Source: Atopobium deltae
GTDB lineage: Bacteria; Actinomycetota; Coriobacteriia; Coriobacteriales; Atopobiaceae
DNA: 64,000 nucleotides
NCBI RefSeq assembly: GCF_001552785.1
Contig: NZ_KQ959507.1
Location: 124,001-188,000, forward strand
Direction of reading: 5' to 3'
Shown: piece after piece, positions 26,486 to 29,103 of the stretch
How the letters are laid out: every line of letters starts with the position of its first letter
Position numbering within the stretch: the stretch's first letter is position 1
Notes under the pieces: generated by a model
Databases searched by the model: none
What the model was told of the DNA's origin: nothing
Seen by the model: the letters and a program-made list of their open reading frames with translations, nothing else
Made by a program: the position numbers and the translations under genes

Positions 26486-26813
26486 TTATGACAAAAGTTC
26501 TTTAACGAGAATTTCGTTGACGTACGCTGACGTAGTAACACCCTTTTTTTCTTGCTTCACTGGCAATTTTTACTTTAAGAACTTGAGGGACCTTTACCGA
26601 CAGCGTCTCGAGGTGGCTGGTTGGGGTTGGCATGGTATAACTTGGTTTTTGATCTCCTGTCCATTCGGAAGGAATGACGTCCTTACCTAAATCGTCACAC
26701 CATTCCTCAATTGTCTTCTCATTAGCTATCTCATTTATCTCCTGAGCCTCATATATGAATCTATTGATAGACGGTATCATTACGCAACTTGAAGAATTAC
26801 CGTGTATTTCCAC
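26486..26813 (-). pseudogene. Ribbon-helix-helix (antitoxin-like) gene broken by a one-base homopolymer frameshift
   Basis: As written, a 103 aa frame from the GTG at 26813 ends at 26502 with a non-family tail (SVRQRNSR). The stretch ETLSVKVPQVLKVKIASEARKKG has the start of a ribbon-helix-helix fold. It reaches a run of seven A (plus-strand T at 26544-26550). Removing one base gives KKGVTTSAYVNEILVKELLS and a stop at 26486, an excellent second helix of an Arc/HicB-type DNA-binding domain. The N-terminus (FIYEAQEINEIANEKTIEEW) is not recognised. An ATG at 26780 is an alternative start. Local DNA is more AT-rich than its neighbours, suggesting acquired DNA. No toxin partner is evident. Either a true pseudogene, a phase-variable gene or a sequencing error. 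Confidence 0.6.
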
Positions 26814-26932: not shown

Positions 26933-28393
26933 CTACATTTCTTCATGATGCAAACGCCATGCCTGATCTTGGAAAAAGCGGACCATGATAATGGTCGCTT
27001 TCCAGCTAAGCATGCCCAATACCACAAAGACAGCGCCAAACACAAGGCCAATAAACAACGCAGGAAGCCCTGTTATCTCCTCATGCATAAACACCATAAT
27101 GCGTGCATTTTCGAGCACTGACAGATACACAAACCCTCGCAGAAATCCCAAAAATCCAGCTAACACACTAATTCCTGCCGATAAATACATCGAAAACGAA
27201 AGTATTGCCGTGGTGGGAATAAGAGCCATCCATGAAATCGCCGCTGCAGAATAAAAGCTCACAAGCATCAAAAGGCGTTTAAACGAGAAGCCCTTGTGCT
27301 CGACAACATTTGTACCAAGGTACTGCATCGCCAGCAGCCTGGGTGACCCCATCTCGGCAATGATATCCTGCGGCTTTTGGCCGTGCCTCAGACGCTCATA
27401 AAACGAGCTCTTAAGCTCACTAAAAATATCCGTTTTTTCCGAAACTGGCATATGACGCAAATAATGATCAACCTCAGCTAAGTAGTTTTCTAGCTGTTGG
27501 TCGAGTTTCTCGTCAGCTCCACCGACACCAACGTTTGTGTCATCAAAGTGTGTATTCATATCACTCAATCCCTCTGTATGCTCCAAAATATGCAAAAAAG
27601 CTGCGCATATCCCGCACTCGCAGCGTATGGTCGCCGAGCGCGTCATAACACGATTCGAAATACCACGATCCAACAACACAGGTAGATGTAGGTTATCGAC
27701 GTTCCATTCGAAACCAGATTCACTCACATAGGTATTCTCGGCAAGCGCGACCGCCGAAAACGTATGGCTTTGCGCAGCCTCATCCAAGGCCCAAGCCGCA
27801 CGACCTGTGGGCGATAAGATCCTGCACTCATAAGCGTCATCGAACAAGATAGGACAAAGATGTGCATAGTGCGCCAACACGCCGAAGACACTCAAAAAAT
27901 GATCGGCTCTGCCCGCTGACGCACAACAAACTGACAGATCAATGGTGGTGTTTGTAAAACGCTGTTCCACAAAATCACAAGCAAGACCAAGGTCAGTGTA
28001 ATCCTTTTTTGGCGAGAAGAGCGCGAACTCGACAGGCTTGCCTTCAACATGCTGCCCCTCAACAGGATCCCCCTCAACAGCCGCGGAATTGCGGGCGGAT
28101 TCGACGGATTTATCGACTTCGTCGGACTTGTCGCGAAGCCACTGATAGGCAGCAGATGACACCGTATCGGCATCCCCCACAAAAGCATCGGGGATCTGGT
28201 GGATATCCATAAGCCTGTCGGCACCACGGTCAACAGCGACCACAAAGTCAGCCTTCGCCACCAGTCGGCGCAAAAGAACGGGCGAACAAGAATCGGGCGA
28301 GCCTGCTACCAGTAAAATGCGTGACGTCGAGGCTTGTGATGCGGACTTCGCGGTAGAGAACTGATGATTGTCGGGTTTGTCTGACTTGCACAT
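26933..28393 (-). CDS. Thiamine diphosphokinase fused to a DUF1700/HAAS membrane protein
   Basis: Residues about 25-275 match thiamine pyrophosphokinase (ThiN): VDRGADRLMDIHQIPDAFVG, KDYTDLGLACDF and SAGRADHFLSVFGV correspond to its substrate and ATP motifs. From about 279 the sequence is a DUF1700-type helical domain (SEKTDIFSELKSSFYERL, then DIIAEMGSP), followed by about four membrane segments (about 365-480). The two parts share one uninterrupted frame. An internal ATG (MNTHFDD, about residue 279) preceded by GAGGG could let the second half also be made alone. A charged low-complexity insert (about 95-125) interrupts the ThiN part. Overall 486 aa; the fusion is unusual to my knowledge. Confidence 0.8.
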   Translation of the reverse strand: MCKSDKPDNHQFSTAKSASQASTSRILLVAGSPDSCSPVLLRRLVAKADFVVAVDRGADRLMDIHQIPDAFVGDADTVSSAAYQWLRDKSDEVDKSVESARNSAAVEGDPVEGQHVEGKPVEFALFSPKKDYTDLGLACDFVEQRFTNTTIDLSVCCASAGRADHFLSVFGVLAHYAHLCPILFDDAYECRILSPTGRAAWALDEAAQSHTFSAVALAENTYVSESGFEWNVDNLHLPVLLDRGISNRVMTRSATIRCECGICAAFLHILEHTEGLSDMNTHFDDTNVGVGGADEKLDQQLENYLAEVDHYLRHMPVSEKTDIFSELKSSFYERLRHGQKPQDIIAEMGSPRLLAMQYLGTNVVEHKGFSFKRLLMLVSFYSAAAISWMALIPTTAILSFSMYLSAGISVLAGFLGFLRGFVYLSVLENARIMVFMHEEITGLPALFIGLVFGAVFVVLGMLSWKATIIMVRFFQDQAWRLHHEEM

Positions 28394-28395
28394 GA

Positions 28396-29103
28396 CTACT
28401 CGATGGGTTTCTCGGCAGGAGCAGCAGTAGGATCGGGAAGATTTTGGATCGTGGCAAGTGAGAGATCTTCAAAAATGTGCGTCAACAAGGTCGAATACGG
28501 AAGCATGGCATCTAGGTTGCGTGCGTCGTGATCGTTGTGCACACAAACCGTGGGAAAACCCGAGGCCGCGGCGGTCATCAACCCAAAAGGCGCGTCCTCA
28601 AACACCCAGGTGCTCGCGCGATTGGTCTCCAGCTTTTCGAGAGCATACAAATAAATGTCGGGCTCTTGCTTATTGAAATCCTTCTCTTCTGCGCTAATGA
28701 TGTCGATAAAATACTGCATCATGTCAAGACGCTCGAGACACAGGCGCACCTCGGCCGCCGAGGTGGAAGTAGCAATAATCATGGGAATGTTTGCGTCGGC
28801 AAGCTGTTGCAAAAAAGCCTTGGAGCGCGGCCACGGCTGAATCGTGGTGGAGTAAGCCTTACGAATGCGATGGGTAAGATCACAGAAGAGCTCCTCTTCG
28901 GAAGCGGCGATGGAAAGCTCTTCTTTAAGCGAACGGATTTCGTCGGGCAGGCTCATGGCCTCGCAACGTTTGAGCGCGGCGGCGACCTGCTTGTCGTAAG
29001 CGCGGCCGTGAGCAGCTAAAAGCTCGGGAAACACGCTCCACCACATCGACATCGAGTCGACAATCGTACCGTCACAATCAAAAATTGCTCCTGTAATCGT
29101 CAT
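28396..29103 (-). CDS. HAD-superfamily phosphatase, beta-phosphoglucomutase-like
   Basis: 235 aa soluble hydrolase. Motif I is FDCDGTIVDS near residue 8, motif II IIATSTSAAEV near 110, motif III Lys in EEKDFNKQEPDIY near 145, and motif IV FEDAPFGLMTAAASG near 168. The helical cap lies between motifs I and II, as in subfamily IA (beta-phosphoglucomutase, phosphoglycolate phosphatase). The substrate cannot be assigned. It ends two bases before the thiN fusion gene, so the two are likely co-transcribed. The tail ends PAEKPIE, encoded by a near-match to the CGAGAAG motif. Confidence 0.85.
   Translation of the reverse strand: MTITGAIFDCDGTIVDSMSMWWSVFPELLAAHGRAYDKQVAAALKRCEAMSLPDEIRSLKEELSIAASEEELFCDLTHRIRKAYSTTIQPWPRSKAFLQQLADANIPMIIATSTSAAEVRLCLERLDMMQYFIDIISAEEKDFNKQEPDIYLYALEKLETNRASTWVFEDAPFGLMTAAASGFPTVCVHNDHDARNLDAMLPYSTLLTHIFEDLSLATIQNLPDPTAAPAEKPIE

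Follow-up and report, generated by a model that had tools for sequence, protein, structure and literature searches.

A thiamine pyrophosphokinase fused in frame to a HAAS/DUF1700 membrane protein in Atopobium deltae

Results

In the assembled genome of Atopobium deltae the gene for thiamine pyrophosphokinase (TPK, ThiN) reads without interruption into a HAAS/DUF1700 membrane protein, and in the assembly this fusion is real. The fused frame lies at 26933..28393 on the minus strand of the 64,000-nucleotide stretch of DNA analysed here (the window), encodes 486 amino acids, contains no internal stop codon and sits in a stop-to-stop opening of 511 codons. An earlier note on this DNA had described a single unbroken frame running from ThiN into a DUF1700/HAAS membrane protein; its coordinates, strand and length proved exact and the ORF translation, Pfam and NCBIfam bear out the domains, which score above cut-off. 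In Pfam one and the same protein carries TPK_catalytic, TPK_B1_binding and HAAS, each above its cut-off. The evidence for the fusion comes from a single genome in a single draft assembly (1.447 Mb, 35 contigs, 97% complete), in which the frame is found in contig C25. The pairing is a new joining of two known families, recorded from one species. An AlphaFold (AF2) model of the fused protein, built from a nine-sequence input, has a mean pLDDT of 68, with a good TPK core and good HAAS helices (residues 294-366) followed by membrane helices.

In earlier descriptions a HAAS domain is invariably coupled to PadR, while here one without a detected PadR is fused in frame to the sole TPK found. If confirmed, this would mean that a regulator-less sensor can be kept through fusion to an enzyme, and the protein would offer a natural test of HAAS acting on a non-PadR partner.

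The kinase half

By sequence criteria the first half of the protein is a member of the TPK family. Pfam, NCBIfam, alignments and Foldseek place the kinase region at approximately residues 24-268 (27590..28324, minus strand). In the fused protein TPK_catalytic (PF04263) scores 58 bits against a cut-off of 30.7 and TPK_B1_binding (PF04265) scores 23.6 bits against 22, while the first half matches thi_PPkinase (TIGR01378, thiamine diphosphokinase) with 81.1 bits against 76.4 in NCBIfam. The conserved TPK motifs GDxDS/T, KDxTD, GRxDH and SN are present as GDADT, KDYTD, GRADH and GISN, the first of them also being found in the TPKs of genomes G001 and G018. The region aligns with a TPK of solved structure and with ThiN of the same genus, and TPK structures are the top Foldseek matches of the model. 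Membership of the SteA family was rejected, as the protein reaches 22.7 bits with the SteA family model, whose cut-off is 150.

Neither a protein search nor the TPK profile identified a second TPK in the genome, so that the fused copy is the only one found. A ThiT transporter that might explain co-location was likewise not found in the genome, and no TPP riboswitch was found within the window. Channelling from an importer to the kinase is therefore unsupported.

The HAAS and membrane half

The second half belongs, judging from its profile match, to the HAAS superfamily (PF22564, 43.9 bits against a cut-off of 27 for the fused protein in Pfam). The HAAS domain, delimited with Pfam, the HAAS profile and a comparison of invariant residues, occupies residues 303-356 (27326..27487, minus strand) and has its GxP motif as GSP at residues 349-351; it is the only match to the HAAS profile in the genome. 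A membrane region follows at about residues 372-466 (26996..27280, minus strand), as indicated by hydropathy and by AF2 helices at residues 371-421 and 443-485. The earlier note counted four membrane segments; membrane helices are indeed present, but hydropathy and AlphaFold give three or four, and the count of four is not established. This succession of a HAAS domain and three to four hydrophobic helices is homologous to that in padR-paired copies. In GC content the HAAS half, at 45.8%, lies below both the thiN part (52.5%) and the window as a whole (53.1%).

Of the five nearest relatives that turned up for the HAAS half, all at 39-52% identity to it, four are from Bacillota: Peptoniphilus gorbachii (locus L049, 52%), a Peptoniphilaceae MAG (48%), Clostridiales COT-073 (47%) and Fenollaria timonensis (L051, 39%). 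The fifth, from Atopobium sp. Marseille-P4126 (L048, 49%), belongs to the Atopobiaceae. Each of the five stands as a gene of its own immediately 3' of padR and a few bases from its end, and in three of the five loci the next gene encodes an alpha/beta hydrolase. Within the class the HAAS half is patchy, with matches in 7 of 398 genomes and a strong match in one alone (G019). In a phylogenetic tree the Atopobiaceae copy groups with that of the Peptoniphilaceae MAG (99/98), apart from the window copy. Horizontal spread of the HAAS half would be the simplest account, in a direction that we infer.

Two of these loci have features of their own. In P. gorbachii (L049, 2901-9234) the padR-HAAS-hydrolase cassette has a site-specific (serine-recombinase-like) recombinase upstream and a MobA/relaxase-like gene downstream, both labels being read from translations, suggesting a mobile element as the vehicle of this cassette. 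In Marseille-P4126 the frame after the HAAS gene (L048, 5573-6436) begins VTVLFLRQKS, which resembles the hydrolase start MTILFLHGLGQNK of locus L050. No further hydrolase similarity was found there by tblastn, and the frame is probably a truncated hydrolase remnant.

Of the 30 HAAS-domain residues that are invariant in the other five copies, 26 are conserved in the window copy, GxP included, and the pairwise identity of its HAAS domain to the relatives is 60-68%, compared with 63-72% for padR-paired copies at similar distance, close pairs excluded. The membrane part keeps 23 of 34 otherwise invariant residues and has lost 11, fewer being kept than in four of the five relatives; the Fenollaria copy is comparable, with 23 of 37 kept and 14 lost. 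Some relaxation of the membrane part is possible on this comparison. The whole tail might even be a neutral passenger, functionless, decaying and there by the accident of a lost stop codon, which would fit its presence in a single species, the lack of a PadR and a membrane part more diverged than in most relatives. We consider this rather doubtful, as the tail has stayed stop-free over 208 codons and its HAAS residues and helices are retained near the level of PadR-paired copies. The retention of HAAS residues speaks in particular against an old, dead passenger. The HAAS half is thus not obviously decayed in sequence, although a recent fusion could look alike.

Absence of PadR

The genome (97% complete) yielded no PadR, either with the PadR profile or in a protein search with the PadR of the nearest cassette. 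This absence is strong but incomplete, because 3% of the genome may be missing. The remark in the earlier note that no PadR lies nearby was thus an understatement, since both searches came back empty genome-wide. HAAS is common in the class, occurring in 166 of 398 Coriobacteriia genomes. Our PadR survey took in 63 HAAS-bearing genomes, including the window's own, together with G001, a genome that lacks HAAS; PadR is present in 62 of the 63, the one exception being the genome of the window, and is missing from G001 as well. According to a published study HAAS is always accompanied by a PadR-like gene (PMC11237479; the paper is silent on thiamin). We rejected a classification of the fused protein as a HAAS-PadR dyad: it is multi-spanning, as in such dyads, but has no adjacent gene for a PadR-like wHTH protein. 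A tblastn search of the window gave no credible match to remnants of padR or of the alpha/beta hydrolase from downstream of HAAS, a point against the history proposed below.

The thiN locus in relatives

Upstream of the fusion is a HAD-family hydrolase gene (28396..29103, minus strand; from Pfam/NCBIfam and the relatives' loci) whose stop lies 2 nt before the thiN ATG. On the other side is rpmB for ribosomal protein L28 (26024..26278, plus strand), a convergent neighbour conserved in synteny and lying about 70 bp from thiN in G001. Between the fusion and rpmB the DNA is AT-rich and holds a 103-aa ORF (26502-26813, minus strand) with no family above cut-off; it may encode a small protein of RHH/antitoxin type or may not be a gene at all. 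In G002, from the same genus, a gene encoding a 1157-aa protein whose N-terminus resembles a signal sequence is found between thiN and rpmB (L038, 5836-9309, plus strand). Since that gene occupies this spot in G002 and the HAAS part occupies it in the window, the spot appears to tolerate insertions.

HAD and TPK are in one frame at 15 of the 29 relatives' loci examined (L006, L008, L010, L013, L014, L016-L019, L021-L023, L025, L026 and L039). Thiamin monophosphate phosphatases are among the HAD enzymes that occur fused to thiamin genes or in clusters with them. TPK fusions at the thiN locus are not rare; the novelty lies in HAAS as the partner and in the lost regulator.

The same ThiN-HAAS fusion was not found in 60 relatives, and none of 39 HAAS-side loci has a TPK frame; the search for the same domain pair in other Coriobacteriia, which the earlier note had proposed, therefore yielded no second instance. 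Viral contigs and plasmids gave no match either, and a literature search for a TPK-membrane fusion returned no relevant papers. The earlier note had also held that separate genes at this locus in relatives would speak against the fusion. Here thiN does stand alone in relatives, but the HAAS relatives are elsewhere, next to padR. The solitary thiN of relatives would thus place the origin of the fusion in this species or in its recent ancestry, without disproving the fusion.

The junction

The two halves are joined by a linker of 10 residues (269-278, ILEHTEGLSD; 27560..27589, minus strand), defined from the thiN ends of relatives and from the model, which lies past the usual thiN C-terminus and before M279. 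Residues 261-293 are disordered in the model, with a pLDDT of about 30. In G001 and G002, both from the same genus as the window, thiN stops 2-3 residues after AAFLH (ends AAFLHTKP and AAFLHAV are seen), whereas the window reads on. In alignments the ATG of M279 (27557..27559, minus strand) falls at the start codon of the free-standing HAAS genes, and 10 nt before it is a Shine-Dalgarno-like AGAGGG (27570..27575, minus strand), recognised from the sequence and its anti-SD pairing. The internal start with GAGGG before residue 279 that the earlier note had pointed out is therefore there, and it also corresponds to a known kind of gene start. Because M279 is the free-standing start and has AGAGGG upstream, the linker is most simply read as what was once the 5' leader of the HAAS gene, ribosome-binding site included, and is now read through. 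The bases just before M279 also resemble padR 3' ends (AGAGG, and a stop before the ATG in another frame), a similarity too short to support a claim.

It is plausible that a second product starts at M279. The gene may in that case yield both the long fusion of kinase and HAAS and a separate HAAS protein that keeps the original HAAS role, as might be expected from a native start codon placed before a well conserved HAAS domain. The anti-SD pairing at M279 (-6.3 kcal/mol) is stronger than at about 59% of the 39 window gene starts (median -5.9), and the thiN start itself, 2 nt after the HAD stop, pairs weakly (-2.7). By chance, however, an equal score is reached by about 5% of the 279 internal in-frame ATGs of the window genes, and the 10-nt spacing is rather long. 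Initiation would also have to compete with elongating ribosomes, there being no stop before M279, and the searches of the genome did not reveal PadR, the original partner. We hold this two-product reading to be possible, and put it forward tentatively.

The junction is also where a sequence error would matter. With a wrong base in the linker, the real arrangement would be a thiN gene adjacent to, and coupled with, an orphan HAAS gene. One base inserted after AAFLH would let thiN end in FGAYRGIE, with a TGA one base before the ATG, and one base deleted would let it end in FWSIQRD; the genes are separate in every known relative, and the assembly is a draft in 35 contigs. Such an error is nevertheless unlikely in our judgement. 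The neighbouring genes are unbroken in comparison with G001 and G002, the T6 run in AAFLH is equal in length to that of G002, and the sole run in the linker is TTTT. Short-read errors are rare in runs of this type. The loss of PadR would still have to be explained, which is true with or without an error.

Discussion

We think it probable that thiN lost its stop codon and became fused to the HAAS gene of a former padR-HAAS pair, that padR was lost, and that the HAAS part now serves as a membrane anchor. A padR-HAAS cassette moving between anaerobes would have landed between thiN and rpmB, padR would have been lost after the landing, and loss of the thiN stop codon would have led to read-through into the HAAS gene; both the landing site and the order of events are our reconstruction. 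The HAAS part would then form a C-terminal anchor, cytoplasmic and helical at first and then membrane-embedded, and besides the fusion a separate HAAS product may be made from M279. Because HAAS precedes the first membrane helix, we infer that the kinase is cytoplasmic, on the correct side. From this predicted topology the kinase is probably tethered at the membrane, and thiamine diphosphate would be made at its inner face.

Simple anchoring seems to us more likely than regulation. In a regulated, one-component sensor-enzyme the HAAS/membrane half would sense the envelope and tune TPK, and with it thiamine diphosphate synthesis, in place of the PadR output. The GxP groove of HAAS has been proposed to pass membrane signals to a partner (PMC11237479), the motif is retained here as GSP, and the native output partner, PadR, is missing. 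Against this, the pairing is not conserved, as no relative has the same fusion, and the linker is predicted to be disordered. In addition, we know of no reason to couple thiamine diphosphate synthesis to envelope stress. We therefore regard regulation of the kinase as very unlikely, and prefer the anchor.

Comparison with known systems

The fused protein shares its catalytic and B1-binding domains, motifs and fold with standard TPKs (TIGR01378; 3LM8 of B. subtilis and 3L8M of S. saprophyticus), and differs from them in the C-terminal HAAS-membrane extension and in an acidic insertion at residues 96-120. SteA, an actinobacterial division protein that acts at the membrane, has a TPK-like fold and gives weak sequence and fold matches to the fused protein, which, unlike SteA, is a whole TPK including the B1-binding domain. 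The HAD-TPK fusions of Coriobacteriia also have TPK in one frame with another protein of the same operon. In those fusions a soluble HAD hydrolase forms the N-terminal part, whereas in the window the HAD protein is encoded separately and TPK is joined at its C-terminal end to a membrane sensor.

The HAAS-PadR-like wHTH systems (PMC11237479; LltR-Lmo0600 of Listeria, PMC6624303) likewise place membrane helices after a HAAS domain that carries GxP, and the nearest kin of the window's HAAS half adjoin padR as in these systems. The fused protein differs from them in belonging to a genome without a detected PadR, and in having the N-terminus of its HAAS domain joined to a metabolic enzyme.
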